Source: Spirochaetes bacterium GWB1_60_80 (GTDB taxonomy: Bacteria; Spirochaetota; Spirochaetia; Treponematales; UBA12059). From it: a stretch of 64,000 bases of DNA. A program made the translations under genes and the position numbers. Below, in pieces: positions 4,223-64,000 of this stretch (within the stretch, counting starts at the first letter, position 1; each line of letters starts with the position of its first letter). Where the stretch lies: contig MIAR01000035.1 in NCBI GenBank assembly GCA_001829185.1, positions 62,001 through 126,000 of the forward strand, read 5' to 3'. A model generated the notes under the pieces. That model was not told where the DNA came from, did no database searches, and worked only from the letters and a program-made list of their open reading frames with translations.

Positions 4223-7041
4223 AGTGATGCCTCCTTAGTTGTTTGAGAGTTCGCCTCGGCCGGGACAACCTCGTCAGTTATATTTTTTTCTGCTACCGTG
4301 GCCTTCCGGCGGCTAACGCGCGCACTGAGTGATAGCAGCGCGGGCAGTACGGTAAAACTGGGCAGAACGCAGCAGGCGATGCCCAACGCCAGAATGGTTC
4401 CCAGATCCATGATCGCCTTAAAACTGGCGACCAGGGCCAGCGAACCGAAACCCAAGAAGGTGGTGAGAGCGGAAAGGCAGACCGCCTTCGTGGAATCCTG
4501 GTAGACCAGGCGGAGCCTGGCTTCGGTGGCCAAGCCAACGGTAGCCTGCCAGCGGCTGATGAAATGGACACCGTAGTCGATACCCATGCCTATCACCAAA
4601 GGCAGTGCCAGAATGCTGACAATATTGAATTTGCCGATCAACGGGTAGATGCCGAACATCAGGAGCACGCCAATGCCCAGATTGAGCACGGCCACCAGCG
4701 TCAGCTGCGGCGAGCGAAAACCAAGCCAGGTCATCAACAGCACGAACAGCGCGACGATGAGGCCCGACTTTTTAGCCTCAGCCAGGGTCACCCTGGACAA
4801 TTCAATGCCAAGCTGGAGACTGCCCGTCAGGCGCGGGTCGATTTCGCCCAGTTCCTGGACGTACTGGCGGACGGTGGCATCATCGTATAGCCCGTTGGTC
4901 GGCGTCACTTTGACCAAATAGCCGGTACCATCATCGCTACGGGTTTCGGTCAGGATGTCGGGTGGCAGATCATCGGCGCCAATGTGTCGGTCGATGGCCG
5001 ACATGGCGGCAACTCGGGCGCACAGCGCACTGGCGAAGGCGTCGTCCAGGGCTTTGAGGCGAGCCAGTCCGTCGGCGCTGGCGGCGGCTTTTTCCAGCGC
5101 CGCGATCAGCGTAGCGAACACTTCTCTACCCGGCTTGCCCCTTTCAGCCCCACGGATTACCCCGATCATGGCGTCGCGTTTCAGTATTGGCAGGCAGTCC
5201 TCGCCGAGTGAGGCGGCCGCTAAATCGGCCAGCTCGATGACATTCCACTCCAGACGGCGGAATTCGTTAACCAGGTCGACCGCTCGCGCCGTGTCCCAGT
5301 TGTGGCTTTCCGGCCGGCGCTCGGCTTGGCCGATGCGGGCTATCAGTGCCAGGCGAGCGTCCTGTTCGGCCACTTCGGGTATGAAGTCGGCGATCGATTC
5401 GGCGCTGCGTACGAAGGCGCTACCATAGGCCTTGTCCGTCAGCCGCCGGGCTTCTTCGATGCTGTCGACCATCGCCAGGCTAGTGAAGGTGGACATGCGG
5501 AAACGTTCGTTGATGGCCGCCTCGCTGCGCTGGGTCTCGGTATCGCGCGGGCCGATCGCCCGAAAATCATACTCAAAGCGGTTGCGCGGTATCATGGGAA
5601 GAATCAAGGCGCACAGGCAAACGGCGACGGACAGGGTGGCCGCACGGTGCCGGCCAAAAAAAGTCCCCGCCCGGGCGGCGGCGTTGAAGGTCAGGACGGC
5701 GCGATTGCGCGTCTGGTCGGAACGGGCTTGGCCCGGAAAGAGGCAAAGCAAGGCGGGCAGCACTGTGAAGGTTGTCAGCAGACAAGTCAGAATACCCGTT
5801 CCGGCAATCAAACCGAACTGTTGGAAGGCCGGAGAGCGCGACAGGACAAGAGAATAAAAAGCGCCGGCAGTAGTCAGAGCGCCAATTAATACCGGGACGA
5901 AGATTTTGGCAAAGCAGTCAGCCATGGCCTCCGTTTGGCTGCGGCCTTCCATTCTAGCCTCGTCGTAGCGCGTCGCCAGGTGAAGGCCAAAATCGATGCC
6001 CAGGCCGACCAGCAGGGCGCCGAAGGAACTGGTAATCATATTGAGCTTGCCGACAGCCAGGGCGGCAAAGCCGATGTCCAGGATTATACCGACCGCCAGG
6101 GCCAGCAGCGTGAACAGGATGGCGCGCAGGCGCCGGAACGAAAAGGCTAACAAAATGAAAATCGCGCCAAAAGCCAGCAGGCTGGGAATGAAGGCATCGG
6201 CGCCCAGCGCTTGTTCCTCGTCGGCTTCACCGGCCACGTCACCGGTCAGGCTGACGCGCAGCCCCGGATGTCGGCCGGCGACAGCGGCGCTGACCGTTCT
6301 TGTCCGTTCGGTCATATCGCTGAGTTTTCGCCTGTCACCCAGATCGAAGGTGGGACTCACTGTCATCAGAAGCGTCGTGCCCTGCGCATCAACCAGGTAA
6401 CGGTCACCGAACACTAGATCGTCGACCAGCGCGGCCGCTACCGGCGCGGCATCCAGCGCGTTGTCATCCAGAGCCGCGTACAGGTCGCGGGCGAACAGCT
6501 CGAAGCCCGTCATCGTTCGAACCAGCTCGTCCTCGCCACTGCCGCGCTCCACTTCTTCCGAACCGTCGGCCAGCTTGTCCTCAAGCGTGTCATTGAGCGA
6601 GCGCAGGAATGGCAGCAGGTTGGGCTCAGCCAAGAGGCGAAGCTGGTCTTCCAGCGCTTCCGTATCGGCCAGCAGCAGCCCCCAGCTCTCCAAGAAATCC
6701 CTATCCATCGATACGCGGATATTGCGAACCAGCGGGTTCAATCTAGCATCGTCACGCACCAGCTCGGCCAGTTCCTCAGCCGCCGCGATTAAGGTGGATC
6801 GATCGGGATGCTCCAGCATGACCACCAGACTCGAGGTGGTGGTAAATTTATCAGTTATTCCCAGGTAATGCTGCCCGGCCAGGTTGTCGGCCGGCAGCAT
6901 ATCGGCGATGGCGGTTTCAAAGCGCAGACTGCGCGCCCCCACCAGGGCAAGCCCGACTAGTAGCAGGCTCGCTACCAGTATGTAGATTGACCGCTTGGCA
7001 ACCGCACGTCCCAGTGTTCTAGCCACGTGTTCCAGTTTCAT
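4219..7041 (-). CDS. RND superfamily exporter, MMPL/Patched-like
   Basis: 940 residues with the duplicated RND plan: one N-terminal membrane helix, a large periplasmic domain, a five-helix block, then a second helix (about residue 475), a second periplasmic domain and a final helix block. The conserved acidic membrane motifs are visible in both halves (GLGIDFGLHLATRYDEA and GMGIDYGVHFISRW). Members of this family move lipids, hopanoids or other hydrophobic molecules using proton motive force. The ATG at 7041 was chosen because GGAGG stands 5 bases before it; a TTG at 7053 has no such site. The gene is first in the operon after the tetR gene, has a TetR operator in its leader, and overlaps the LolA-like gene by four bases. 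Confidence 0.93.
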   Translation of the reverse strand: MKLEHVARTLGRAVAKRSIYILVASLLLVGLALVGARSLRFETAIADMLPADNLAGQHYLGITDKFTTTSSLVVMLEHPDRSTLIAAAEELAELVRDDARLNPLVRNIRVSMDRDFLESWGLLLADTEALEDQLRLLAEPNLLPFLRSLNDTLEDKLADGSEEVERGSGEDELVRTMTGFELFARDLYAALDDNALDAAPVAAALVDDLVFGDRYLVDAQGTTLLMTVSPTFDLGDRRKLSDMTERTRTVSAAVAGRHPGLRVSLTGDVAGEADEEQALGADAFIPSLLAFGAIFILLAFSFRRLRAILFTLLALAVGIILDIGFAALAVGKLNMITSSFGALLVGLGIDFGLHLATRYDEARMEGRSQTEAMADCFAKIFVPVLIGALTTAGAFYSLVLSRSPAFQQFGLIAGTGILTCLLTTFTVLPALLCLFPGQARSDQTRNRAVLTFNAAARAGTFFGRHRAATLSVAVCLCALILPMIPRNRFEYDFRAIGPRDTETQRSEAAINERFRMSTFTSLAMVDSIEEARRLTDKAYGSAFVRSAESIADFIPEVAEQDARLALIARIGQAERRPESHNWDTARAVDLVNEFRRLEWNVIELADLAAASLGEDCLPILKRDAMIGVIRGAERGKPGREVFATLIAALEKAAASADGLARLKALDDAFASALCARVAAMSAIDRHIGADDLPPDILTETRSDDGTGYLVKVTPTNGLYDDATVRQYVQELGEIDPRLTGSLQLGIELSRVTLAEAKKSGLIVALFVLLMTWLGFRSPQLTLVAVLNLGIGVLLMFGIYPLIGKFNIVSILALPLVIGMGIDYGVHFISRWQATVGLATEARLRLVYQDSTKAVCLSALTTFLGFGSLALVASFKAIMDLGTILALGIACCVLPSFTVLPALLSLSARVSRRKATVAEKNITDEVVPAEANSQTTKEASL

Positions 7042-7068
7042 GGTGTCCTCCAATTGACTTCGACAAAA

Positions 7069-7084
7069 AACTAACTAGTTAGTT
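7069..7084. promoter_or_regulatory. TetR operator 1 (upstream of the RND gene)
   Basis: A perfect 16-bp palindrome, AACTAACTAGTTAGTT, lies 28-43 bases before the RND start codon. It matches a second site at 7924-7939, in front of the tetR gene, at 14 of 16 positions. The pairing of identical palindromes with an adjacent tetR gene is strong evidence for an operator. Confidence 0.8.
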
Positions 7085-7291
7085 AAGTTCACCTCGTAAA
7101 ATAGATTGCGCTGCCTCCTTTATTCGCCATCGTTGCTATTTGCAAAGACTGACGGCTCTTTGACAGCCGCTAACGTATTGGCGCTAGCTGGCACAGGCCA
7201 CACTCAGTCGCTTAGCTTGGTGCTGGATCGTCTAAAGCCAAGGCTTTTAGGCAATAGATTTGATAGCTGTCACCTTTGTTATTCATGGAAA

Positions 7292-7909
7292 TCAAGTCCC
7301 TTTTGCGCCGTACAGACGGAAACTATACGTGACATGCGTACCGATAAACGCATCCATGAACATGTCGCGCAATTCTGGTTCGGTCATGCTGAAGTGCTTC
7401 ATCCAGTGGTTGTGGTAGACCACGTAATTCAGCAAGGGCATGATGCCGGTAAAGAATTCCATGACTTCCGATTGGGCGGCCTGCTCCATTGAAAGATTGG
7501 TTGCCACGCCAGAGGCAAACATCCGCGTCATGGTCTCCTTGATCAGGCCGAATACCAACGACCGATCCGGAGCCGCCTTGAGCGATTCCATAAGCAGCAC
7601 CCGAATCACTTGTTCGTGTTCTTCAAGTGCATCCAGGTACTGGCCCAGTATGGCTTTCAGTTCCGGTAGATTGGATAAATCGGCCTTGGCGAATTGTTCC
7701 GCGGCCATGAACGCGAAGAGATGTTCCAGCGTCTCATGACAGAGTACTTCCAGTATTTCATCCTTACTCTTGAAGTAATAATAGATGAGCGCCTTGTTCA
7801 CCTGGGCCGCTTTGGCGATTTCGTCCACCCGGGCGCCGTCGAAACCTTTTTCGGCGAAAATACGGGCCGCTGCTTCGAGGATGCGCTGTTTGCTTTCAAG
7901 ATCACTCAT
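7292..7909 (-). CDS. TetR/AcrR family repressor of the RND operon
   Basis: 205 residues. The N-terminal helix-turn-helix is canonical (KQRILEAAARIFAEKGFDGA, then VDEIAKAAQVNKALIYYYFK SKDEIL), followed by a helical ligand-binding domain of normal length. It is on the same strand as and upstream of the RND/LolA-like/barrel genes, 250 bases away. Its own promoter and the leader of the RND gene carry near-identical 16-bp palindromes, so it very likely represses both itself and the exporter operon until a ligand (perhaps the exported compound) binds. A weak GGGAAG ribosome site precedes the ATG. Confidence 0.92.
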   Translation of the reverse strand: MSDLESKQRILEAAARIFAEKGFDGARVDEIAKAAQVNKALIYYYFKSKDEILEVLCHETLEHLFAFMAAEQFAKADLSNLPELKAILGQYLDALEEHEQVIRVLLMESLKAAPDRSLVFGLIKETMTRMFASGVATNLSMEQAAQSEVMEFFTGIMPLLNYVVYHNHWMKHFSMTEPELRDMFMDAFIGTHVTYSFRLYGAKGT

Positions 7910-8134: not shown

Positions 8135-8884
8135 TCAGTCCTCCCAGTCACGCAGGCCGGCCAGATCGTAGACCAGGAGTCCGCCGCGTTCGGTTTCCAC
8201 CAAGCCGGCTGCCTCCAGCCGCTTCAGGCAACGGTTGACCGTCTCGCGGGTCAGACCTAGCGCCTCGGCCAACTCAGCCTGGCTGCGCTCCAGCCGCCGC
8301 GTGCCGCCAGCGGCCGCCTCCAGGCCAGCGGCCGGCGCCACCCCAGCCATACCGCAACAGGCGGCCGCGATGGCCCGGGCGACACGCTCGGCGGCGCTGG
8401 CCGTGGCCAGCTGGCTGTACACGTTGTACTGACCCTCGGCCAACAGCCGACAGGCCAGTTCGCGGAACCAGCCTTCGCGGCGCAGGGCCGCCAGGTTGAA
8501 GCTGCCCACCCGGCGCAGGCGGCAGGCTTCCACGGCCAGGGCGTCGGTCAGGCAGATCCGGCCCAACCAGGCCTCCGGCAGGCAGAGCCAGCCACCTGGC
8601 GTCACATCGTCCAGTGGCTGCGACGACGAGCCGTGCCAGCGCAAGGGTCGAATACGGCCGGCCAGCAGCAACCAGACCGCGTCAGCCGCGTCGCCCTGGT
8701 AATAGAGGGCTCGGCCGGCGCGCAGCGTGGCTTCCACCGAATAGCGTTCCAAGCCTTCGAGCTCGCTCCGGCCCAGCGTCGGCAGCAGCTGAGCCAGGCT
8801 ACCTTGGCTGGCCAGGCTACCTTGGCTGGCCAAGCTCCCTTGGCTAGCCAGGCTCACCTGGCCGCCCCCAACGTCAGCGGCCAT
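8135..8884 (-). CDS. Crp/Fnr family transcriptional regulator
   Basis: 249 residues: a cyclic-nucleotide-binding-like beta-roll (about residues 35-150) and a C-terminal Crp-type winged helix (RSQAELAEALGLTRETVNRC, LKRLEAAGLV). The phosphate-binding cassette expected for cAMP (GELAL...R.A) is not recognisable; the region reads GGWLCLPEAWLGRICLTDAL, so the ligand is probably not cAMP. No Fnr-type cysteine cluster is seen. The N-terminus holds three SLASQG repeats encoded by an 18-bp tandem repeat. The start (8884) overlaps the end of the upstream switch-like gene by 11 bases, so the two are co-transcribed; a start inside the repeat is possible. Confidence 0.85.
   Translation of the reverse strand: MAADVGGGQVSLASQGSLASQGSLASQGSLAQLLPTLGRSELEGLERYSVEATLRAGRALYYQGDAADAVWLLLAGRIRPLRWHGSSSQPLDDVTPGGWLCLPEAWLGRICLTDALAVEACRLRRVGSFNLAALRREGWFRELACRLLAEGQYNVYSQLATASAAERVARAIAAACCGMAGVAPAAGLEAAAGGTRRLERSQAELAEALGLTRETVNRCLKRLEAAGLVETERGGLLVYDLAGLRDWED
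8793..8864. repeat. 18-bp tandem repeat inside the Crp/Fnr gene
   Basis: Four head-to-tail units begin at 8793, 8811, 8829 and 8847. The first two are identical (gccaggctaccttggctg), the third and fourth diverge. In the coding frame they add SLASQG blocks near the protein N-terminus, so copy-number change would keep the reading frame. Confidence 0.85.
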
Positions 8885-10127
8885 GGCGTTCCAATGCTTT
8901 CCAAGCCGGGTACAGGCTCTGCGCGGCGTAAACCAGGTTCAGCCGACCACCGGGGCAGGCGCAGCCCACCAGCAACACCATGCCGTGCTCCAGAATGCCG
9001 GCCGCTGATCCGACCAGCTGGCCGCCTTCCAGGCACAGCAACGGCGGCGCTGCCTCCAGTTGCGGCTTGGTAAAGTTCATATCACAAACCGTCTTCCAGC
9101 CGGAACGCAGCGCCACCGCCAGGTCCGAACCGTAATCGGCCAAGGAACTGGCCGCCCCTGTCATAGACATCAGCAAGAGCCGTCGGTCGGCCAGAGCCGC
9201 GCTGACGCGGGCGTACTCGGCCACCCGCCGCGCCGTCTGGCTATCCAGCGGCAGTTGCGGAACAGCCGGCTGGATGAGGGCTACGGCCGCGCCGGCCGCC
9301 GCCGGCTCGCGCCGGTACTCGCGCTCCCGTCCGCCCAGACTGCACGACAGCAACCGCGCCTCGGCCGATACCGAATCGAGAAACTCGCGGTAGGTCATCT
9401 GGTCCACTTCCACCACTTCCAGGCCGCCGGCCGCCGGCACCAACTGATTAAAGGTATCCATGACCCGGCCATGGATGTCCTGGATGGCCCTGATCTGGCG
9501 GCGGGTAAAGCAGTCAGGCCGGCGCCAGTCGTACATTTTCACCAGACGATTCGGCTCCTTGGCCGAGCGCAGCACGGCGCCGCTAGCCCGCCGCTCGCCG
9601 TCCCAAGTCCGTGGCGCTGGGCACTCGTCCACCAGCAGACCGAAGCGTTCGCCCACCACCACCGCCGGTCCGCGGGCGGCCACCCGGCCGGCCACGCGCA
9701 GGCTGAGGCGAGGCGCGTCGGCCAGAGACTCGCCAGCCGGATACGGCCGGTCCAGCGACACGACGCTGCCGGCGCCGGCCTCGCGCAATTCGGCCAGACT
9801 GTAGGCGCAGCCCTCAAAGACGATCTCGAAGGGCAGCAGCTCCAGCAGGGCGCCACCGCGATCCGGCTCGGGGTCCAGCGGCGTTTCACGCTCCAAACCC
9901 TCAAGGCGCACGGCGCTGCAAGCCTGACCGGAATCGTTGCCCAGCACCACTAGGCTAGCCCGCCCCAGGAAGCGGCCATCTAGGGTCAGCTCGCCGTCCT
10001 GACCGGCGTTCAGGGTGTCACCCACCACCACCCGGCCGGATTCCAGGCCGGCCAGCTCCCAGGCCGACAGCCAACCGCGCGTCACTACCAGATCCAACTG
10101 TCCGCGTTGAGAGAAAATGCTTTCCAT
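8874..10127 (-). CDS. FliM/FliN-family flagellar switch-like protein with permuted domains
   Basis: 417 residues. Residues about 10-65 (LVVTRGWLSAWELAGLESGR...DGRFLGRASLVVLG) and 98-160 (YSLAELREAGAGSVVSLDRP, VAGRVAARGPAVVVGERFGL) resemble two SPOA (FliN/FliM C-terminal) domains. From about 190 the sequence matches the FliM middle domain (YDWRRPDCFTRRQIRAIQDI, VEVDQMTYREFLDSV) and ends with MVLLVGCACPGGRLNLVYAAQ, like the last strand of that domain. Normal FliM has the opposite order. No CheY-binding N-terminal peptide is seen. The ATG at 10127 is set by AGGAGG 5 bases upstream. It stands alone, away from flagellar operons, and is coupled to a Crp/Fnr regulator. A switch-complex accessory role is inference. 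Confidence 0.75.
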   Translation of the reverse strand: MESIFSQRGQLDLVVTRGWLSAWELAGLESGRVVVGDTLNAGQDGELTLDGRFLGRASLVVLGNDSGQACSAVRLEGLERETPLDPEPDRGGALLELLPFEIVFEGCAYSLAELREAGAGSVVSLDRPYPAGESLADAPRLSLRVAGRVAARGPAVVVGERFGLLVDECPAPRTWDGERRASGAVLRSAKEPNRLVKMYDWRRPDCFTRRQIRAIQDIHGRVMDTFNQLVPAAGGLEVVEVDQMTYREFLDSVSAEARLLSCSLGGREREYRREPAAAGAAVALIQPAVPQLPLDSQTARRVAEYARVSAALADRRLLLMSMTGAASSLADYGSDLAVALRSGWKTVCDMNFTKPQLEAAPPLLCLEGGQLVGSAAGILEHGMVLLVGCACPGGRLNLVYAAQSLYPAWKALERHGR

Positions 10128-10373
10128 AATATCCTCCTCGAGGCAGCGTCCGCCGCTCCTCGCCATCGAAGCTACACCCAAACTATAGCGCTGCAAGTGA
10201 GCTTGGAGCGTGAGCCATAGTCACAGAAGGCTGGAACCACCACCGTCGGTAGCGGGAACGTCCCTGGCCCCGCTCAATTCAGGCTTTATCCAGCTGGATT
10301 ATCGCTCCGAAAGGTATTATCCTTGTTCCGATGGCCGACGGCAAGAGCGCTTGGCTGTCGAGTGGAGAAGCTG

Positions 10374-11987
10374 ATGCCCGATTTACAAATTTCCGCCAGT
10401 CATCGCGCCTGGCTGCTGGCTATCGTGTTGGCCGTTTTGGCTGGCCGCCCGACGCCCCTGGCGGCGGTGACGCGAAGCGTCCGGGTCGGAGTTTTCCCGG
10501 CCGCGCCTTTAGTGCTCAACACCCCGGACCAGCCGACTGGATTCTTCATTGAATTGTTGGAGACTATTGCGCTGAAGGAAGGCTGGACTCTGGAATACGT
10601 CCAAGGCACCTGGCAGGAGCATCTCGCAGCCCTCCGCACCGGCACTATCGATCTTCTACCAGCCGTCGGCCATACCCCCGAGCGCCTGGCCTTCTATGAG
10701 TTCAATTCCGACCCGGTCTTCATCGACAGCGGCGTGGTATTCAGGCAACCCAGCTTCCCGGTCCACACGGTCTTTGACCTGGCCGGCAAAACCATCGCCG
10801 CCGTTCGGGGCAGCATATTCACCGCCGGCTTCGAAGCCTACATCGCGTCCTTCGGCATCCAGTGCGCCATGGTGTATACCGAGGACAACCCGGCCGTCAT
10901 GCGCCTAATCGAGTCCGGCGCGGCGGAAGCCGGCATCACCATTTACTCATTGGGCAGCCAGCTGGAGCGGGACTACGCTGTCGAGATGACGGCCATCAGC
11001 TTCTCGCCGCTAGCCCTACACTACGCCATCGGCCAGGTTCGGAACCGCGATCTGTTGGTAGCCATCAACGCCGCCCTGACTGAAATGCTCCCCGACAACG
11101 GCTCCGTTTATGCCCGACTATATGAAAAATGGATACTACCGCAACCCTCCCAGGAAATCCCGGCCTGGCTGTACGCCGCCTTGGCCGTCGCCGGCCTGCT
11201 GGTGGCTAGCTTCATCGGCCTCAGCCTACTGCTGCGCCGGCAAGTAGAGCTCCAGACCAAACATCTGACGACCGAGATAGCGGCTCACAAGGAAACTAAC
11301 CAAAAGATCGCACTGGCCCTGGAGGAGCGCGGACTCTTGATGCGCGAACTTTACCACCGCACCAAAAACAATCTGCAGCTCATCCACAGCCTGTTTCTGC
11401 TCCAAGCCAACGAGTACCCGGATAATGCGACGGTTAACGACATGGTCGCCAAGATCGACTCGCGCATCCAGGCCATCTCCTTGGCGCAGCAACTACTGTT
11501 CGAATTCCAGAATCTGTCGCAAATCTCGATCAAATCCTACATCGCCAACCTGTCCGGCAGCATTTTGGAAGGCTTTGGCAGCGACGGTACAGTCCAACGA
11601 AACCTGGAGGTGGCGGACCTGCTCCTGCCTATCGAGCGGATCGGCACCATCGGGCTGATTCTCAACGAACTGATGACCAACTCGCTCAAGCACGCCTTCC
11701 CGGACCGCCGGGGCGGCAGTTTCACCATCCGCTTTACCGCAACGGCTCCGGACAGCTACCGGCTGGAGTATCTGGATGACGGCATCGGCTTCCAGCCAGG
11801 CAACTGCACCCCACCGAGTAAGACGCTCGGCCTGTTGCTGGTGGACAACCTGATTGACCAACTCGGCGGAACCGTGCGCTGCGACTCGACCGGCGGCGTC
11901 CATTACAGGATTGACTTCCCGGTCAGAAGCGGCGCCGACGGAAACAGAGCGGACGGTTCAGGCGGCGTAGCCATCGCCAGGCCGTAA
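10374..11987 (+). CDS. hybrid sensor: periplasmic SBP_bac_3 domain plus HisKA_2 histidine kinase
   Basis: 537 residues. After a signal/anchor (AWLLAIVLAVLAGRP), residues about 40-260 form an amino-acid-type solute-binding domain (SVRVGVFPAAPLVL, PTGFFIELLETIA, FDLAGKTIAAVRGSI). A membrane helix follows near 270-290, then a short coiled coil, then a HisKA_2-type phosphoacceptor (LMRELYHRTKNNLQLI; H is the likely site) and an HATPase domain with the N box (LNELMTNSLKHAF) and DDGIGF. These kinases usually sense a small molecule outside the membrane and signal to a separate regulator; none is encoded next to it. Start ATG 10374 has GGAGAAG before it. Confidence 0.9.
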   Translation: MPDLQISASHRAWLLAIVLAVLAGRPTPLAAVTRSVRVGVFPAAPLVLNTPDQPTGFFIELLETIALKEGWTLEYVQGTWQEHLAALRTGTIDLLPAVGHTPERLAFYEFNSDPVFIDSGVVFRQPSFPVHTVFDLAGKTIAAVRGSIFTAGFEAYIASFGIQCAMVYTEDNPAVMRLIESGAAEAGITIYSLGSQLERDYAVEMTAISFSPLALHYAIGQVRNRDLLVAINAALTEMLPDNGSVYARLYEKWILPQPSQEIPAWLYAALAVAGLLVASFIGLSLLLRRQVELQTKHLTTEIAAHKETNQKIALALEERGLLMRELYHRTKNNLQLIHSLFLLQANEYPDNATVNDMVAKIDSRIQAISLAQQLLFEFQNLSQISIKSYIANLSGSILEGFGSDGTVQRNLEVADLLLPIERIGTIGLILNELMTNSLKHAFPDRRGGSFTIRFTATAPDSYRLEYLDDGIGFQPGNCTPPSKTLGLLLVDNLIDQLGGTVRCDSTGGVHYRIDFPVRSGADGNRADGSGGVAIARP

Positions 11988-54853: not shown

Positions 54854-56392
54854 TTATGAAAAAGAAACCTGAATAGCCAGGAATTGCTGGATATTGCCGA
54901 CAAAGAGGGCGACCAGCGCGGGGTCGAACTGGCTGCCGGCATTGTCTTTGATATAGTTCACGGCCTCGGACACGGCCCAGGCGCCGCGGTAAACGCGGTT
55001 GCTGGTCAGGGCGTCAAACACGTCGGCGATGGCCGTGATGCGGGCGTATAGGTGGATGGCCTCGCCCTGAAGGCCGGCCGGATAGCCGCCGCCGTCCCAG
55101 CGTTCGTGGTGCTGCTTGGCAATGATGGTGGCCGCCTGGAAAAGCTCGCGCCGCGAGAACTGGAGCAGGCCGGCGCCAATGGCGGCATGGGTCTTCATAG
55201 CCTGGAACTCCGCTTCGTCCAGGCGGGAAGCCTTGTTGAGGATGACGTCGGGGATGGCCACCTTGCCAATGTCGTGCACGGCGCTGGCCACCTCCACCCG
55301 GCGGACTTCGTCGTCCGGCAGGCCGGCCAGGTCAGACAGCAGGCGGACGTACTCCGACACTCGTTTGACGTGGCGGCCGGTCTCCATGGAGCGCTGCTCG
55401 ACGATGTCGCCCAGCGTGAAGATCATCTCGCGGTGGTTTTCCTCGATCTCGCGATTCAGGTAGATATTGTCGAAGGCCACCGAAACGTTAACGCAGTAGA
55501 TGTTGATCAGCTCGATGTCGATGGTCGACAGGTCGGGACAATCTTCCAGGTAGATCAGGTTCTGAGCGCCGGTCTTGGTCTCGATGTAGCCGATGTAGGA
55601 GTGTTGGTCATGGCTGGAAACTCGGTTGGAATGGGCCAGCTCGACCCGTCGCAGCAGATCTGGCGCCAGGAACTCGTCCAGCCGGCGGTCAATGCCGGTC
55701 TCGAAGCGGCCGGTACCGGCTAGGATAACGAAACCGTCGCCGACGCTAGTAGCGGTGAAGCCGCCTATGCCCAGGTACATGGCACCGCGGTCCACGCTCA
55801 AGAGCCCCGTCAGCTGTTCAAGCACGCCGGAGGCGAATTTCTTGAGCGATTGCAACTCGAAGATGCGCGCCGACGACTCGATGATCTTGTGCAGGCCATG
55901 GCGGCTCTTCTCGATGGTGATGATATCCTTGTACGAGCGGATAGCCGCGATCATGGTGGTATATAGCTTCTGGGCGGTCAGCTCGGTCTTTTCTTTATAA
56001 TCGTTGATGTCGTACTCGAGGATGACCCGGGTGGCCGGCGCCTGGCCAGGTTGTCCAGTGCGCAGAATGATGCGCACGGCGTGGTTGTCGATTTCCTCGC
56101 GGATAAACTGCACGAGGCGCAAACCGGCGTCGTCGGTCTCCATCACCACGTCCAGCAGGATGACGGCGATGTCGTGCGCCCGTTCCAAGCAGTCTTTGGC
56201 TTGTTTAGAGGAGTAGGCCGATATGAATTCCAGCTTGCGGCCGGCGAAGGCAAAACCGGCCAGCACCAACTTGGTGATGTGGTGGACTTCCTCTTCATCG
56301 TCGACGATCAGGATTTTCCAGACGTCGCCGCCGGCCGGAATTGCCTCGGCCTTTTCTTCCGCGAAAACCAATCGATCGTCGGCAGGAATCAT
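54854..56392 (-). CDS. response regulator with REC-DUF3369-HD-GYP domains (c-di-GMP phosphodiesterase)
   Basis: 512 residues. REC domain about 25-150 (KILIVDDEEEVHHITKLVLA; phosphoacceptor Asp in AVILLDVVMETDDAGL), a DUF3369/GAF-like middle (TELTAQKLYTTMIAAIRSYK, FASGVLEQLTGLLSVD), and an HD-GYP domain from about 330 (VASAVHDIGKVAIPDVILNK with HD; KQHHERWDGGGYPAGL with GYP). Degrades c-di-GMP on phosphorylation. It overlaps by four bases with the upstream histidine kinase, which is therefore its partner. Together they form a two-component c-di-GMP switch. Confidence 0.95.
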   Translation of the reverse strand: MIPADDRLVFAEEKAEAIPAGGDVWKILIVDDEEEVHHITKLVLAGFAFAGRKLEFISAYSSKQAKDCLERAHDIAVILLDVVMETDDAGLRLVQFIREEIDNHAVRIILRTGQPGQAPATRVILEYDINDYKEKTELTAQKLYTTMIAAIRSYKDIITIEKSRHGLHKIIESSARIFELQSLKKFASGVLEQLTGLLSVDRGAMYLGIGGFTATSVGDGFVILAGTGRFETGIDRRLDEFLAPDLLRRVELAHSNRVSSHDQHSYIGYIETKTGAQNLIYLEDCPDLSTIDIELINIYCVNVSVAFDNIYLNREIEENHREMIFTLGDIVEQRSMETGRHVKRVSEYVRLLSDLAGLPDDEVRRVEVASAVHDIGKVAIPDVILNKASRLDEAEFQAMKTHAAIGAGLLQFSRRELFQAATIIAKQHHERWDGGGYPAGLQGEAIHLYARITAIADVFDALTSNRVYRGAWAVSEAVNYIKDNAGSQFDPALVALFVGNIQQFLAIQVSFS

Positions 56393-57891
56393 CCATCAAC
56401 CTCGTTCGTCTCGTCGTTTTGCTGGGGCAGGACCAGCCTGAAATGCACCCCATCGCCCAGTGTACTGTCGCAGGTAATGGTTCCGCCTAATTTTGAAACG
56501 ATGTTGTAAACGATATACAAACCCAGACCGGTACCGCCTTGCTCGCGCTTGGTGGTAAAGAACGGTTGGAAGATCCTGTTCAGGTTCTCTGTCGGGATGC
56601 CGATGCCATCGTCGCGGTACTCTAGCACAATATCCTTGTTTTGTATACGCGCCTTCAGTTCGATGGCACCGGCCCGCTGGTCCGGATAAGCGTGGTTCAG
56701 GCTGTTGACCAGCAGGTTGGAGACGATCTGCGACAGCATGCCAGGATAGCCGTACCACGCCAAATCGACCGGAATATCCACCGAAATCAGGTGCGGGCTA
56801 CTTTTGAGGCGGGGACGCAGGCTGAAGAGCACCTCACCGACATACTCGCACAGCTTGACCAGGCGCCGGTCCTCGTTACTTTGGTCGGCCGTGACCTTCT
56901 TGAAGCTGGAGACGAAGTTGCTGGCCCGCTGCAGGTTAAGCAGCAGGATGGCCACCGTCTCATCGGATTCGTTGAAGAAGTTCTCGATGGCCGACCGGGT
57001 TAACTGGCCGCTTTCCAGATTCTGCCGCACCTGCTTGAGGAGTTCCTGCAGGTGCGAGGCGGCCGTGACGCCGATGCCGACCGGCGTATTGATCTCGTGG
57101 GCCACGCCGGTGGTAAGCCCCCCCAGGAAGGCCAGCTTCTCGGCGTCGATCAGGCGGCTGGTACGGTCGGATACCAGGCTTTCCAGATCGCTGGAGTAGG
57201 CCTGGAAGACCGCAGCCATCTCGTTCAGGTTGCGGGCCAACTGCCCGATCTCGTCCTGGCGCTTAATTTCGTTACCCACCCGGACGCCGAAATCCTTGGC
57301 GCCGATGCGGTGCACGGCTGTATTGAGGTGGCTGATGGCGTCGATTAGGCTCATTTTGACGTAGAAAACCAGCACCAACAGGCTGACTACCGAAACCAGC
57401 AAGCCGCGCAGCGAGAACAGGAACAGGTCGCGATTAATCTTGCGGATTACCGGGTCCAGGAGCAGGCCAATCTCCAGCACGCCCAAGGCGATGTCCTTGT
57501 GCTCCAATTGGGCGTAGAGCACCCGATCCGAGGTCTCCGGGCGCACCCAACCATCCGTGACGGCCACCGGGTAACCGGACTCGTCGGCCAAGCGGTCAAA
57601 ACCGGCAAACAGGCTGCCGTCATGGTTCCAGACCGCGATGTAGGCCACCCGGCTGTCTTGCATGGCTACCGCCAGCATCACCTCCACCTGTGAATTGGAA
57701 AAGTTCCAGACAGCCTCCTCCAGCGACAGAACGAGCTGGTCGCGCAGGTTGAGGGCATCGCGCTGGGCCGTGGCCTCGGCCGTCCGCCGGTCCAGCCCGA
57801 AAATAATCAAGCCGCTGACCAGCGTCAGGACGCTCAGGATCAGCAGGGCGGCGGTAAAAATGCGGAAACTGAGACTGCCTACCAGGCGCAC
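56389..57891 (-). CDS. membrane histidine kinase paired with the HD-GYP regulator
   Basis: 500 residues: two membrane helices (IFTAALLILSVLTLVSGLII; LLVSVVSLLVLVFYV) bracketing a periplasmic sensor of about 130 residues, a HAMP region, the H box (LTTGVAHEINTPVGIG), and an HATPase with SNLLVNSLNHAY (N box), DDGIGIPTENL, TKREQGGTGLGLYIV. The GTG at 57891 is chosen because AGGAGG lies five bases upstream; a TTG at 57924 has none. Signal unknown. Confidence 0.93.
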   Translation of the reverse strand: MRLVGSLSFRIFTAALLILSVLTLVSGLIIFGLDRRTAEATAQRDALNLRDQLVLSLEEAVWNFSNSQVEVMLAVAMQDSRVAYIAVWNHDGSLFAGFDRLADESGYPVAVTDGWVRPETSDRVLYAQLEHKDIALGVLEIGLLLDPVIRKINRDLFLFSLRGLLVSVVSLLVLVFYVKMSLIDAISHLNTAVHRIGAKDFGVRVGNEIKRQDEIGQLARNLNEMAAVFQAYSSDLESLVSDRTSRLIDAEKLAFLGGLTTGVAHEINTPVGIGVTAASHLQELLKQVRQNLESGQLTRSAIENFFNESDETVAILLLNLQRASNFVSSFKKVTADQSNEDRRLVKLCEYVGEVLFSLRPRLKSSPHLISVDIPVDLAWYGYPGMLSQIVSNLLVNSLNHAYPDQRAGAIELKARIQNKDIVLEYRDDGIGIPTENLNRIFQPFFTTKREQGGTGLGLYIVYNIVSKLGGTITCDSTLGDGVHFRLVLPQQNDETNEVDG

Positions 57892-58027
57892 CGGCGCCTC
57901 CTCTGGCAATAATAGTAGGCTCAAGTCGCACGTAATGCAACCGCAAGCTCAGCTAAAAGCAACCTGCCGACCAGGCGGGCTGCCGGTTTGGCCAGCTGGG
58001 CGGCCACCGGGAAAATCACCCGGGTAT

Positions 58028-58436: not shown

Positions 58437-60449
58437 ATGGACACGCTGATCATCCAAGTGCCTTTCACGCAACTGAACACGGCCTACCCGGCCATCTGGT
58501 ACCTGGACGCCTTCCTGCGCCGCGAAGGCTTACGCTGCCAGGCGCGCGATACCGCCATCGCCTGCTTCCGGGCCATCTTCTCGTCGACCGGCTTACCCCG
58601 GATCTTCGAACGCGCCCGCCAGTTCGTTCCCCAGCTCAAAGGCGACCAGGTGACGGCCCGGCGCCTGGCCGCCTACTTCAGCCAAGAGGCCGCTTACTGC
58701 CGCCTGATCGACGGCCTGTGCGCCTACCTGGCCGGCGAGGACCCGGCCTTCGCCTACCGCCTGGCGGTAGGCGCCGACCTGCCGCTGGGCATGCGCGCCG
58801 AGGCCGTACTGGAGCCGGCTGGCGGCATCAGCGTCGAGGAGGCGCCGGCCCTGGCCACCGCCATCCTCAACGACTTGGCCGACTTCGTGCGCTATACCGT
58901 GGACCCGAATTTCGAGACCGTGCGCTACGCCAACAGCCTGCCGGCCAGCGTCCAGCACTTTGCCGACCTGGTGGCCGTGGCCGAAGGCAGCTGGCTCTTG
59001 GCCGAATTCTACCGGCCCATCCTGGCGACCATCTTTGACGCCGCCGCGGCCAACGGCGGCGCATCCGCAACCGATGGCGCACCAGTCGACCAGCCGCTGC
59101 TGATCGGCTTAAGCGTGCCCTTCCCCGGCTGCCTGGCCGGCGCCGTAGTGGCTGCCCAGGCCGCCCGCGCCCATTTTGGCGACCGGGCTACCATCCTATT
59201 GGGCGGCGCCTACGTGTCCACCGAGCTGCGCGAATGCCTAGACCCGGCACTGTTCAACCTATTCGATTATGTCTGCTATGATGCCGGCTACGCCGACCTG
59301 GCCATTCTGGCGCGGCAGACCGCCCCGGTGCCCGGCCTGGCCCCGCCCGGGCTGAGCCAGACTCGCTGGCTAGACCGCGCCACCGGCCGCATCGCCGGGG
59401 CGGCCGACGCGCCGCCGCCAGCCGCCGTGCTACCGCCGGAGGCCGCGTCACCAGCAGCTTCAAACGCAGCCCGCGCTGGCGCGGCCGACGTCGAGCACGC
59501 GGCCATCGCCCTAGTCCACCCCGACTACCACGGCGCCGATTTCCGCCAGTACCTGCGCATCGTCGATTCACCCAACCCGATGCACCGCCTGTGGAACGAC
59601 ACGCCCTGGCTCAAGTACCGCCTGGCGCACGGCTGCTACTGGCAACGCTGCGCCTTCTGCGACACCCAGCTGCATTACATCCGCCATTACCAGCCGGTCA
59701 AACTGGACAGCCTGCTGGCGGCCATGGACGAGGCCGCCGCGCGCCATCGCCTGTACGGCATCCATTTCGTCGACGAGGCCATGCCACCGGCCCTAGTACG
59801 CGACTTCGCGGCCCGCAACCGTCAGCGAACCCGTCCCTTTACCTTCTGGGGCAATGCCCGCTTCGACAAGAGCTGGACCGAAAGCCTTTGCGCCGAGGCG
59901 GCGGCCGGCGGCCTGATCGCCGTTTCCGGCGGCATCGAGATCGCCACCACCGCCGGCCTGGAGGTGATTGACAAGGGCTTCAGCCTAGTTCAGCTAGTGC
60001 GCAGCCTGGCAAACTTCAAGGCGGCCGGCATCCTGGTGCACGCCTATCTGATCTATGGCTTCCCCGGGCAGGACCACCAGGATATCGCCGACTCGGCCGA
60101 GATGGTGCGCCAGCTGCTGGCCGAAGGCCTGATCGACTCGGCCTTCTGGCACCGCTTCGTGTTGACCAGGCACTCCCGCCTTTACGCCGATTGGCAGCGG
60201 GGGCTTGTACCCAGCCTCGAGCCGCTGCCGCCGCCGGGCAGCTTCGCCATCAACGACCTGCGCTTCCAAGGCGAAGCGCAGTACGAAGTCTGGACTCAAG
60301 TGCTCGACAGCGCCCTGGCCGCCTGGGCCGACCGCGGCGAAACCACCCTGCCCCTGCCCCAGTTCTACGGCGCCGCGGCCAGCCGTCTGCCTCGTCCCCG
60401 GCTGAACGCCCGCCAGCTGCTGCGCCAAGCCGGAGTCAGCCAGGGCTGA
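58437..60449 (+). CDS. B12-binding-type radical SAM protein
   Basis: 670 residues. The N-terminal half has a Rossmann-like, cobalamin-binding-domain style region (LLIGLSVPFPGCLAGAVVAA, TILLGGAYVSTELRECL) without the DxHxxG loop of true B12 binders. The radical SAM domain starts with HGCYWQRCAFCDTQLHY, a Cx4Cx2C cluster, followed by LYGIHFVDEAMPPALVRDFA and SGGIEIATTAGLEVIDKGFS. An Ala/Pro-rich insert of about 60 residues (around 320-365) joins the two. Substrate unknown. The start is the ATG at 58437, placed seven bases after a TATACT. Confidence 0.88.
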   Translation: MDTLIIQVPFTQLNTAYPAIWYLDAFLRREGLRCQARDTAIACFRAIFSSTGLPRIFERARQFVPQLKGDQVTARRLAAYFSQEAAYCRLIDGLCAYLAGEDPAFAYRLAVGADLPLGMRAEAVLEPAGGISVEEAPALATAILNDLADFVRYTVDPNFETVRYANSLPASVQHFADLVAVAEGSWLLAEFYRPILATIFDAAAANGGASATDGAPVDQPLLIGLSVPFPGCLAGAVVAAQAARAHFGDRATILLGGAYVSTELRECLDPALFNLFDYVCYDAGYADLAILARQTAPVPGLAPPGLSQTRWLDRATGRIAGAADAPPPAAVLPPEAASPAASNAARAGAADVEHAAIALVHPDYHGADFRQYLRIVDSPNPMHRLWNDTPWLKYRLAHGCYWQRCAFCDTQLHYIRHYQPVKLDSLLAAMDEAAARHRLYGIHFVDEAMPPALVRDFAARNRQRTRPFTFWGNARFDKSWTESLCAEAAAGGLIAVSGGIEIATTAGLEVIDKGFSLVQLVRSLANFKAAGILVHAYLIYGFPGQDHQDIADSAEMVRQLLAEGLIDSAFWHRFVLTRHSRLYADWQRGLVPSLEPLPPPGSFAINDLRFQGEAQYEVWTQVLDSALAAWADRGETTLPLPQFYGAAASRLPRPRLNARQLLRQAGVSQG

Positions 60450-60524: not shown

Positions 60525-63500
60525 CTACAGGGCTTGGCCCAGGAAATCGTAGCCGATCAGCTTGTGGATCAAGCCGGCCTGCTCCAGCGCAAAGGCCAGC
60601 AAGGCTTCCTCGCGGGCTGAGAGCGGGCGTTGGTCCGGCCTGCCCAGGCTGCGCTCCAGGCGCATTGCTAGGACGGCCTCGAAGGCCTCCAGGACACTGC
60701 TACCGGTTTCCGGCTTCAAGCGGCCGCTTTCCATCAGTTCGTCGAGGCGCTCAAAGGTGCCGGTGGCACGGCAGCCGGCCTGGAGGGCATACAGCCGGAC
60801 GCAGCCGCCAAGGATGGCGCCCAGATCCTTGAGACAGGCGCCGTGCGCCGACCGCGGCTGGTTGCTGGGCAGTTTTTTCTGGCGCTCGGCGGCGGCCAAG
60901 TGAGTCAGGAAGGCTGGGTTGCGGCCGATAGCGGCTTGGACTACCGCCCGGAGTTCATCCGTTAGCCGGGACGAGCCGGCCGCGCAGCGGAAGTCCAACA
61001 GGATGCTGAGGTCCAGCAGCCGCGCTGGCTCGGGTTCGCCGATGCCATGCTCCAGCCGCGCCTGCCACTCGGCGAATGGTCCGTTCCAGAGCGGATTCAG
61101 CGCCATTACGCCGCCGGGGCAGCGCGGTTGGCCGACCGCCTCCAAGCCGGCGCACAGCCGCGTCGCCAGGGCCACAAACCAGGACCGCTCCGCCGCCGGG
61201 TCGCCGCCGGCCGGCCGCCAGACCAGGGCGTTGTCCTGGTCGGAACCGGGCAGATACTCCTGGCGGCCCAGGCTACCCAGGGCCAGGAAGGCCCATTCGG
61301 CCGGGGCCTCGCCCAGGTCCTGGCTAATCAGCCGCGCCAGGCCCTGGATAATGGCGTCTTGAATCTCGGCGTGGAGGCGGAGCACGATGCGCGGTCGCAG
61401 GCCTAGCTCGGCCAGCTGTCCCAATCTGTCGGCGGCCCGGCTGGCCAGCTCGGCCAGAGCCGCCGTGGACTGGGCGGTGGCCGCCGCCGCGTGCAACGCC
61501 GGAAAGGCGTCGGCTTGGGCCAGAGCCAGGTCGGCGGCGCGGACGAGGCGCTGCGGCGGACAGCCCGGGTTGGCCAGCAGCGCGCGATCCACGCCTCGGC
61601 CCCGCATGGCCACCAAGGCCGCAGCCGCACTGACGCCGGCGTCCAGGCAGAGCAACGGCGCGGTCATGATCGCGCCCACCGCGCTTTCCGGATCGCCGCC
61701 TACGGCCACCAGCCGGCCGGCGATATCGTCCGCCGTTACCAGGCCCAGGCTCCGGCCGGCCGAGTCGGTAACCAGCAGAGCGCCGGAGCGCCGCCCTTCC
61801 ATCCGAGCCGCCGCCAGCCGTACCGGGTCGCCTGATAGACAACGCGGCAACTCGACGGCTAGCGGCAACGCCGGCCGGGCCAGCCAAGCCGTTTCGGCCA
61901 CCAACCGGGCGGCTAAGCGCTGGTATCGCCGCTCCTCGCGATCCGCCCCAGACTCGTCGTCCGGGCTAAAACGGAGTTCCTTGACCGAAAGCACCGCCCC
62001 CGGACGGATGCCAATGTTAATCCGGGTGCCGGAAACCGCCACCTCCACCCGCTCGCCGGAACGCTTGGTCAACCAGCATTCGATGCTCAGGCTCGGCTGA
62101 TCGGGGCCCTCCGACGGCCGGGAGGCTACCAAATCGGTGAAGCGTTCCGCCTGGTCGCGCGGTTCAAGCAGCTCAGTGGCGCGCAGCAACTGCACTTCCT
62201 TTTCAGCATAGCCAGTCATGCGCAGGAAGGTCTCGTTGGCGAAGGTACAGGCCCCACCGGAAACAATGACCGTTCCGTCGGTGGCGGCGTCGGCCAAGGC
62301 TCGATAACGCTCGCGCGATTCGCGCAGGGTCAGTTCAGCGGCCAACTTGGCCTGCTCCACCTTCATGGTCTGCCTGGCCATCTGCACCACCAGCAGGGTT
62401 AACACCGCGCTGATGACCAAAGACAGCAACACCAGGCGCGATGACAGGGCCGCGATCTCGGCTAAAACATCTTCCAGATAGATGCCAGTACCGATCACCC
62501 AGTTCCACGGCGCGAAGCGCTTAACGAAGGACAATTTGGGCACAATGCGACTCTGGTCATCCTTCCATTGCCATAGGTACTCGACGTAGCCATCGTCCTT
62601 GTCCCGCACGGCGTTGACAAATTCCACGAAAATGGCCAGGCCGGCCTCATCCCGGAAGCCGGTCAGATCCTTGCCCTCCAGGTCAGTCCGATAGGGATGC
62701 ATAACCATGCGGGGGAGCATATCGGTTATCCAAAAATAATCCTTGTTCTCGCTGCCGTAGCGCAGGTCGCGCAACCGGGCGACGGCCTCGGTCCGAGCCC
62801 GCTCCGCCGGCATGACGCCGGCCACCGCCTGCCGCTCGTACTCGACCAGGATGCTGATGGCCGAGTCGGTCAACTCTTTTATGGCTTCCTTTTTCTGACC
62901 CAGCATCATCGCCTCGACGCGCGGTATAATTAGGCCAAATAGGGAAACGATGAACAAGACCACTGCCGTAACGGCCGGCACCAGAATGCGGGCGATGTTC
63001 CGGCCTGGCAGCGGCAGTGGCCGGTCGGTGGGTCGGTCAGCCGGCGGACTGGAAACTGGGCTAGTGCCTGGCGCTTCCGGTGTAGCCAAGGCATCCGGGG
63101 CTTCCAGGGACGCTGAAGCCAGTGGCGTGCCGCGGGAACGCCGGAGTAGGCTATCTCGGAAGGCCACCCAGCGCCTGGCGGGCATGAGCATGACCTCCGC
63201 TTGCCCAGGCGCGCCGAAGTGGTGAAAATCACCGCCAGCGCTGACCGCCAAGCCATGCCGGTCGGCCAGCGCCAGCAGCCGTGCCGTCTCTACCTCGCCG
63301 TAAGCGCCGTAAAAAGCCTCAATGCCATCCAGCCCGAGCGGCGCTAATTCCGCCAGCAAGCGATCCAGCGGCTCCTCCTCCTGGCCCAGTGTCAGGGGAT
63401 GGGCTAGAAAGGCAGCCCCGCCAGCCTGATGAATCGCCGCGATGGCCTGTCCGACGGGTGGTATGCCGTTACTGCGTGGACCGCTCCGCCCTTCGCCAGC

Positions 63501-63812
63501 CGGATCGCGCGTTGGCGCAAGTGGCAGTAAGGCTAGCAACCCGGCGTCGGCCATATCCATGCCGTAGGCCAACAAGTGGGCCGTGCCCAAGCTGGTGGCC
63601 GCAGTCAGCTCCAGACCGTCGATGCAGCCGACGCCCAGGCGCTGCAAGGCTTCCCGGAAGGCGGCGCAACCCCGTACGGTATCGTGATCGGTCAGGGCTG
63701 CGTAGGCCACGCCGCTCTCGGCCAGGCGGCGGGCAAGAATCTCGGGCGGAAGCTCGCCATCGCTCAGGGTGGAATGTACATGGAAATTAACCCTTATTGT
63801 TTGCTCGCCCAT
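60525..63812 (-). CDS. multidomain sensor: PHP - TM - sCache - TM - PAS - CBS - DUF294 nucleotidyltransferase
   Basis: 1095 residues. Residues about 5-225 are a PHP phosphoesterase with every expected ligand (FHVHSTLSDG, LTDHDTVRG, DGLELTA, AAFLAHPLTL, SAGGDFHHFG). A Pro-rich linker leads to a first membrane helix (about 275-295), an extracytoplasmic sCache sensor (NKDYFWITDMLPRMVMHPYR, FAPWNWVIGTGIYLEDV), a second helix (445-465), a PAS domain, a CBS pair (LVTADDIAGRLVAV, IMTAPLLCLDAGVSAAAALV) and a DUF294 GlnD-like nucleotidyltransferase (LGSLGRQEYLPGSDQDNALV with its acidic pair) with DUF294_C. Start: ATG 63812 is preferred; ATGs at 63848 and others in frame are possible. It may couple an external signal to nucleotidylation of a partner; the role of PHP is unknown. 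Confidence 0.88.
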   Translation of the reverse strand: MGEQTIRVNFHVHSTLSDGELPPEILARRLAESGVAYAALTDHDTVRGCAAFREALQRLGVGCIDGLELTAATSLGTAHLLAYGMDMADAGLLALLPLAPTRDPAGEGRSGPRSNGIPPVGQAIAAIHQAGGAAFLAHPLTLGQEEEPLDRLLAELAPLGLDGIEAFYGAYGEVETARLLALADRHGLAVSAGGDFHHFGAPGQAEVMLMPARRWVAFRDSLLRRSRGTPLASASLEAPDALATPEAPGTSPVSSPPADRPTDRPLPLPGRNIARILVPAVTAVVLFIVSLFGLIIPRVEAMMLGQKKEAIKELTDSAISILVEYERQAVAGVMPAERARTEAVARLRDLRYGSENKDYFWITDMLPRMVMHPYRTDLEGKDLTGFRDEAGLAIFVEFVNAVRDKDDGYVEYLWQWKDDQSRIVPKLSFVKRFAPWNWVIGTGIYLEDVLAEIAALSSRLVLLSLVISAVLTLLVVQMARQTMKVEQAKLAAELTLRESRERYRALADAATDGTVIVSGGACTFANETFLRMTGYAEKEVQLLRATELLEPRDQAERFTDLVASRPSEGPDQPSLSIECWLTKRSGERVEVAVSGTRINIGIRPGAVLSVKELRFSPDDESGADREERRYQRLAARLVAETAWLARPALPLAVELPRCLSGDPVRLAAARMEGRRSGALLVTDSAGRSLGLVTADDIAGRLVAVGGDPESAVGAIMTAPLLCLDAGVSAAAALVAMRGRGVDRALLANPGCPPQRLVRAADLALAQADAFPALHAAAATAQSTAALAELASRAADRLGQLAELGLRPRIVLRLHAEIQDAIIQGLARLISQDLGEAPAEWAFLALGSLGRQEYLPGSDQDNALVWRPAGGDPAAERSWFVALATRLCAGLEAVGQPRCPGGVMALNPLWNGPFAEWQARLEHGIGEPEPARLLDLSILLDFRCAAGSSRLTDELRAVVQAAIGRNPAFLTHLAAAERQKKLPSNQPRSAHGACLKDLGAILGGCVRLYALQAGCRATGTFERLDELMESGRLKPETGSSVLEAFEAVLAMRLERSLGRPDQRPLSAREEALLAFALEQAGLIHKLIGYDFLGQAL

Positions 63813-63901
63813 ATTTCCGCCCATCCCGGCCAATGCCATGGCCGGCATTCTCAGTGTAGCAGGCCGCCGGCCAAAAGACAACCGAAACAACGCGGTCGAC
63901 A

Positions 63902-63969: not shown

Positions 63970-64000
63970 ACTACCGATACCGCGAGTTGCGGCGTCGGGC

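Follow-up and report, generated by a model that had tools for sequence, protein, structure and literature searches.

A transmembrane DUF294 receptor with a fused PHP domain, and the unrelated hydrolases found at the same position in its relatives

Among the closest described parallels to the protein considered here are GlnE and GlnD. In E. coli GlnE, the glutamine synthetase adenylyltransferase/adenylyl-removing enzyme, a single polypeptide both attaches and detaches a nucleotide by means of two nucleotidyltransferase (NTase) halves, with AMP being removed by phosphorolysis. GlnD, the PII uridylyltransferase/uridylyl-removing enzyme, carries an NTase writer and a metal-dependent hydrolase of the HD type as eraser in one chain, and has ACT input. 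In a 64,000-nucleotide stretch from Spirochaetes bacterium GWB1_60_80 (GCA_001829185.1, contig MIAR01000035.1, positions 62,001 to 126,000; hereafter the window), a single gene joins a PHP phosphoesterase domain, a Cache–PAS membrane receptor and a DUF294 NTase. The addition and removal of a nucleotide within one chain is proposed here as in GlnE; unlike GlnE, however, this protein combines a single NTase with an unrelated hydrolase and a membrane receptor. Its proposed logic is that of GlnD, but where GlnD has an HD eraser and ACT input, the DUF294 family has a PHP, DnaQ, Metallophos or TIM-barrel partner and a periplasmic Cache input.

DUF294 is widespread and, in Proteobacteria, stands beside acetate-type symporters; in the literature searched, the titles and abstracts of papers mentioning DUF294 contain no report of its biochemistry. 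Soluble cNMP-CBS-DUF294 proteins share the NTase, the symporter context and a nuclease partner with the receptor family, but differ in being soluble, in having a cNMP-type input in place of Cache and PAS, and in having a separate exonuclease gene as partner. One of them, Pflu5625 of P. fluorescens, is a member of the CrbS/R acetate regulon, to which actP and a DUF485 gene also belong (PMC5715377). Among eight plasmid-borne soluble relatives compared by annotation, an annotated 3'-5' exonuclease lies one to three genes downstream in seven, and DUF4212 or DUF485 with a sodium:solute or acetate symporter lies upstream in five; the Paracoccus locus additionally carries acs.

Unrelated hydrolases at one position beside DUF294 receptors

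The gene (60525..63812, minus strand) is a single open reading frame of 1095 codons with an ATG at 63812, a stop codon at 60525-60527 and no internal stops; an alternative in-frame TTG start at 63890 would give 1121 residues. Its product has the order PHP–transmembrane helix–sCache–transmembrane helix–PAS–CBS pair–DUF294–DUF294_C, and the original prediction of a single 1095-residue protein with these domains is borne out by the unbroken frame and the domain matches. In the window's genome (G000; 3.6 Mb, 59 contigs, the window being C35:62001-126000), it is the only DUF294 gene.

The N-termini and direct neighbors of 96 distinct Cache + PAS + DUF294 receptors were classified; these loci, gathered through their similarity to the query, do not form a random sample, and genes were called by longest open reading frame. 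An N-terminal PHP domain is present in 10 unbroken receptors (12 in all), a DnaQ/RNase_T domain in one (L061, RNase_T 1.9e-15), an AP_endonuc_2 domain, a TIM barrel of the xylose-isomerase/EndoIV type, in another (L162, 4.4e-21), and a DUF6915-like domain in 17. The other receptors begin shortly before their first membrane helix. At 44 of the 96 loci, a calcineurin-type metallophosphoesterase (Metallophos) is directly adjacent, in three types: convergent and downstream (type 1, 16 loci), co-directional and upstream (type 2, 22 loci), or co-directional and downstream (type 3, six loci), mostly overlapping the receptor gene or a few bases off. An AP_endonuc_2 gene lies near five receptors, adjacent at L044, L088, L098 and L172 and two places downstream (+2) at L171. 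None of the receptors with an N-terminal domain has such hydrolases within two genes. Pfam searches of 99 direct neighbors returned Metallophos 40 times and AP_endonuc_2 four times; among 148 control genes two or three places off, Metallophos was outside the 25 commonest families, the smallest of which counted 2, and hence occurs at most twice. Non-homologous hydrolase folds thus take one fused-or-adjacent position beside DUF294 receptors, and several partners, PHP being just one of them, are interchangeable, a point that the original prediction did not recognize. Partner types cluster, as expected, in a receptor-core tree, over which the full set of labels requires at least 19 changes. A DnaQ gene beside non-PHP receptors was also considered, but a motif search found none, the neighbors being Metallophos and TIM-barrel genes.

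The DUF6915-like domain occupies residues 1-135 in L105, L093, L071 and 14 more receptors, and is a separate gene at one locus (L034:6977-7312). It stands in place of PHP in receptors of Vibrio, Cloacimonadota and Delongbacteria. Its invariant residues (H6, H22, D26, H51, H56, H84, D87, D88, and H109) suggest, at the level of sequence, a metal site, and it is possibly another hydrolase, perhaps an undescribed metal enzyme; a Foldseek search with its model, a weak one with a predicted local distance difference test (pLDDT) score of 74, gave no matches. In five Vibrio loci (L095, L100-L102, and L105), inspection by eye found the DUF6915-type receptor beside apparent electron-transfer-flavoprotein and ETF-dehydrogenase genes, with two transporter genes where the SSF symporter would stand. 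Two further loci have unusual arrangements. At L090, metallophosphoesterase genes of differing type flank one receptor on both sides (5066-5977 and 8441-9598). At L163 (G080:C63), two different Cache-PAS-DUF294 receptors (5024-7594 and 8331-11234) stand face to face, and upstream of the second lies a gene for an ARMT1-like damage-control phosphatase.

The PHP fusion recurs with identical domain order in 12 genomes, comprising eight Spirochaetota (G000, G006, G022, G051, G399, G069, L027, and L028), three Acidobacteriota (L026, G1086, and G842) and one Clostridiales metagenome-assembled genome (L057), where the phylum label is the group in which each genome was searched. Two of these (G051 and G842) are broken by runs of N or contig ends, and the other 10 are unbroken. 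An assembly or frameshift artifact is therefore ruled out, as is a fusion unique to the window's genome; a PHP segment out of frame, which had been named as a possible refutation, was not what independent assemblies gave. The statement that the combination could not be placed in a known family stands insofar as the literature searched describes neither the architecture nor the partner swap, but the architecture itself is not unique. The fusion is nonetheless rare, with only a handful among 393 Spirochaetota genomes, and is both younger and less common than the receptor core. On the receptor-core tree, the ten unbroken fusions fit a single origin (support 75; 97 for nine of them), which, together with their spread over phyla, suggests horizontal transfer.

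Domains of the fusion protein and their nearest homologs

The PHP domain (residues 7-201; 63210..63794, minus strand, as are all features of the protein) is matched by Pfam at residues 10-80 (E-value 1.2e-7), and its second half, residues 117-201, through NCBIfam and tblastn. The original prediction of a complete catalytic site holds: all nine ligands of a trinuclear metal site (H11, H13, D18, H43, E68, H79, H138, D195, and H197) are present and are invariant in the alignment of the 12 fusions. They align with the metal ligands of RNase AM (YciV; 7UG9) and of the 3',5'-nucleoside bisphosphate phosphatase Cv1693 (2YB1), with which the window protein has the PHP fold in common. In RNase AM, the named metal-site residues are H13, D20, H45, E72, H83, H198, D255, and H257 (PMC9410882); the ninth ligand, the second histidine of the HxH motif, was assigned via the alignment. 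The two enzymes differ from the window PHP in carrying an insertion domain of their own with an arginine 5'-phosphate pocket, whereas the window PHP is joined to a receptor. The insertion (roughly 55-60 residues) is absent here, as residues 92-155 of 2YB1 are bridged by window residues 96-102, and it is a gap in all 12 fusions. In RNase AM, it spans about residues 107-176 and carries Arg107, Arg110, Arg141, and Phe161, which serve the 5'-phosphate and the base/AMP pocket (PMC9410882). Both curated equivalog models score the window PHP below their cut-offs (NF041577, 100.2 vs. 400 bits; NF047791, 87.3 vs. 375 bits). By sequence comparison, then, the domain is of the RNase AM/Cv1693 type but lacks the insertion of those enzymes. 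Because the 5'-phosphate-pocket insertion is absent, the fused PHP probably has a different substrate, and it is unlikely to act on that of RNase AM or Cv1693. A second, separate RNase AM/Cv1693-like protein (L003) is encoded in the same genome. The PHP domain is followed by a cytoplasmic Pro/Ala-rich linker (residues 202-270; 63003..63209) that is poorly conserved among the fusions.

The sensor is an sCache_2 domain (residues 306-454, E-value 4.9e-35; 62451..62897), predicted to be periplasmic and bordered by hydrophobic segments inside residues 271-305 and 449-480, in which hydropathy places transmembrane helices at about residues 275-297 (62922..62990) and 457-479 (62376..62444). Its matches include 4K08 (1e-36) and the PscD chemoreceptor domain (5G4Y, 1e-31). 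Propionate is contacted in PscD by seven residues, Y90, W92, H103, F126, Y143, W145, and K156 (PMC5062169). All seven are identical in the window protein (Y359, W361, H372, F395, Y412, W414, and K426), in 12 of 12 fusions and in 77 of 77 relatives. The two proteins share this sCache_2-type pocket but differ in output, which is a methyl-accepting chemotaxis domain in PscD and an NTase here. An acetate/monocarboxylate-type symporter gene adjoins all 12 fusions. The window gene's own operon reads DUF485-SSF-fusion, with the DUF485 small-subunit and SSF genes upstream, just past the window's end; the symporter's stop codon lies some 14 bases past window position 64000. The symporter has 646 residues, and its best NCBIfam matches, neither of which reaches the curated cut-off, are the MctC monocarboxylate transporter (2e-132) and ActP. 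Because all seven PscD contacts are kept and a symporter gene adjoins every fusion, a C2/C3 monocarboxylate is the likely ligand predicted for the Cache domain. Neither this ligand nor the symporter gene figured in the original prediction.

C-terminal to the second membrane helix are a PAS domain (residues 501-598; 62019..62312) and a CBS pair (about residues 642-771; 61500..61889). Pfam matches the first CBS repeat at residues 660-701, and the second repeat is under the Pfam cut-off, but the structure model and its PDB matches give a full pair. The NTase core (DUF294, PF03445; residues 796-929; 61026..61427) matches at 1.8e-35, with 122.3 bits against a curated cut-off of 21, and has the motif G846-S847..R850..D858-Q859-D860; this motif, GSxxR...DQD, is intact in all 96 receptors. 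It is followed by a helical C-terminal domain (about residues 970-1095; 60528..60905), within which DUF294_C (PF10335) matches residues 1004-1064 with 47.3 bits against 22.5. DUF294_C belongs to a Pfam clan shared with GlnD_UR_UTase (PMC3710099). Pfam finds neither of the GlnD domains HD and ACT in the 1095-residue protein, and the GlnD NTase matches it weakly.

An AlphaFold2 model of residues 625-1095, built from 68 sequences, has a pLDDT of 92.8, and its first 150 residues match CBS pairs. In Foldseek searches, this CBS-DUF294 model matched the N-terminal half of E. coli GlnE (E-value 2e-8), the DrrA AMPylase (2e-7) and the C-terminal half of GlnE (6e-7); Z-scores were 26.1 for both GlnE halves (over 304-308 residues) and 24.2 for DrrA. 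The likeness to GlnE (1V4A, 3K7D) spans the NTase and the helical C-terminal domain. On the modeled fold, the three top NTase matches all belong to enzymes of protein nucleotidyl transfer or adenylyl removal. Neither a cyclase-type enzyme nor a CD-NTase was among the best 50 structure matches, a list filled by CBS matches. The GlnE family PF03710 has no match in the window's genome at an E-value of 0.001, with positive controls, and so the window protein is not assigned to GlnE.

A proposed carboxylate-controlled writer and eraser, and competing readings

The favored reading, a tentative one, is that of a transmembrane protein NTase controlled by C2/C3 carboxylates and carrying its own PHP eraser in the same chain, with a logic like that of GlnE and GlnD. 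Acetate, propionate, pyruvate, or glycolate would bind the periplasmic Cache domain, and the signal would pass through the second membrane helix to PAS and CBS, of which the CBS pair probably reads adenylate charge. PAS and CBS would set the GlnE-like DUF294 NTase, which would transfer AMP or UMP from a nucleoside triphosphate to a protein. The target would most likely be the neighboring ActP/MctC-type symporter, its DUF485 partner, or a carboxylate-use enzyme; gene position makes the symporter the first candidate, although a target elsewhere is possible. The cytoplasmic N-terminal PHP would then hydrolyze the phosphodiester on the modified protein and reset the target, such that the carboxylate signal sets the balance of nucleotidyltransferase and phosphodiesterase on one target. 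A nucleotide attached to a protein hydroxyl through its 5'-phosphate is linked by a phosphodiester, which the DnaQ, PHP, calcineurin, and EndoIV folds can all in principle cleave; p-nitrophenyl-TMP, for instance, is a standard DnaQ substrate. That all of them could cleave a phosphodiester would explain why unrelated folds are able to replace each other. According to the original prediction, a single protein that responds to an external ligand could both add and remove a nucleotide. The hydrolase swaps, the NTase motif kept throughout the receptors and the GlnE-like fold argue strongly, if indirectly, in its favor, and it is from these that we infer the two activities.

Several points weigh against this reading. 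No recognized partner lies near 17 of the 96 receptors, some of which may have one elsewhere, and at 18 the DUF6915-like domain or gene is the sole partner. Since partner choice is clustered by phylogeny, the loci are not independent events. Partners of the DnaQ and EndoIV type normally act on nucleic acids, and AP_endonuc_2 includes sugar isomerases, so that the partners are not all certainly phosphodiesterases. A modeled fold like that of GlnE does not prove protein nucleotidylation. The acetate route in the window's genome is unclear, as no Acs there scores above the family cut-off, and Acs was dropped as a target in that genome. Lastly, deletion of Pflu5625 had a negligible effect on growth on acetate (PMC5715377).

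The strongest competitor, though an unlikely one, is that the DUF294 product is a second messenger, either soluble or an oligonucleotide, which PHP, Metallophos, or DnaQ degrades, while the receptor sets its level by external carboxylate. Among the classical phosphodiesterases of oligonucleotides or messengers are Orn, which has the DnaQ fold, and CpdA, of the calcineurin type. One Metallophos partner is weakly similar to cAMP phosphodiesterase, a Crp/Fnr-type gene lies near a number of loci, and soluble DUF294 relatives carry cNMP-binding domains (PMC5715377). The nearest folds, however, GlnE and DrrA, are protein AMPylators and have a helical substrate-binding domain in common with the model; for the same reason, the variant in the original prediction in which a signal nucleotide is made and broken is less well supported than nucleotidylation.

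Two further readings are improbable. In the first, the partner is a phosphatase of metabolism or metabolite repair serving carboxylate uptake (acting, e.g., on acyl adenylates or pAp) that is co-selected with the receptor and does not reverse the NTase. Carboxylate uptake is indeed the genomic context, and the family of the closest solved homolog (2YB1, Cv1693) hydrolyzes 3',5'-bisphosphates. Against this, the partners are bound to the border or chain of the receptor and not to the symporter, one metabolic activity would be needed from all of the unrelated folds, and L003 already supplies the genome with a separate RNase AM/Cv1693-like protein. The second, an RNA-end module, is doubtful to much the same degree: DUF294 would add nucleotides to RNA, and an exonuclease-type partner would remove them or degrade the tagged RNA, depending on carboxylate. 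Nucleases do occur among the partner folds (DnaQ, RNase AM-type PHP, EndoIV, and Mre11-like Metallophos), and RNase AM, a 5'-3' exoribonuclease, also has deFADding activity (PMC9410882). On the other hand, no RNA-binding domain was found, the window PHP lacks the insertion in which RNase AM forms its pocket for the RNA 5'-phosphate, and GlnE-like NTases act on proteins. Finally, fusions can be passive, but that PHP has no linked function and remains from gene fusion as a structural or regulatory leftover is very improbable, given the invariance of its nine metal ligands in 12 divergent fusions and the unrelated hydrolases at the same position among relatives.

The protein writer-plus-eraser reading may extend, a little more tentatively, to all DUF294 proteins, which would be carboxylate- or energy-controlled protein NTases that regulate acetate-type symporters, each with a dedicated eraser in a slot refilled by unrelated hydrolases (DnaQ, PHP, several calcineurin-type, EndoIV-type, and perhaps DUF6915); the window protein would then be sensor, writer, and eraser in one membrane-spanning chain. 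The parts and the GlnE/GlnD-like logic are already known, and what appears to be new is the architecture and the partner swap, which make DUF294 function testable and narrow the question, in that its product should be undone by these hydrolase folds. If true, this would be a membrane-receptor version of GlnE/GlnD control that couples the sensing of acetate to a transporter's reversible nucleotidylation, and the PHP, DnaQ, and calcineurin folds would gain a role as protein de-nucleotidylases.

Other genes of the window and its genome

Convergent with the fusion gene, a radical SAM protein is encoded at 58437-60449 (plus strand), with a weak B12-binding-type match; it resembles the C-methyltransferases that mature ribosomally synthesized and post-translationally modified peptides and PhpK-type P-methyltransferases. 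It was ruled out as part of the system, as the other fusions have different downstream neighbors. At 54854-57924 (minus strand), the gene for a HAMP sensor histidine kinase overlaps that for a response regulator with DUF3369 and HD-GYP domains, the latter of the cyclic di-GMP phosphodiesterase type. Elsewhere in the same genome (G000:C42:9204-20020), two very long open reading frames (1721 and 2944 residues) with repeated adenylate-forming domains are probably a non-ribosomal peptide synthetase cluster.

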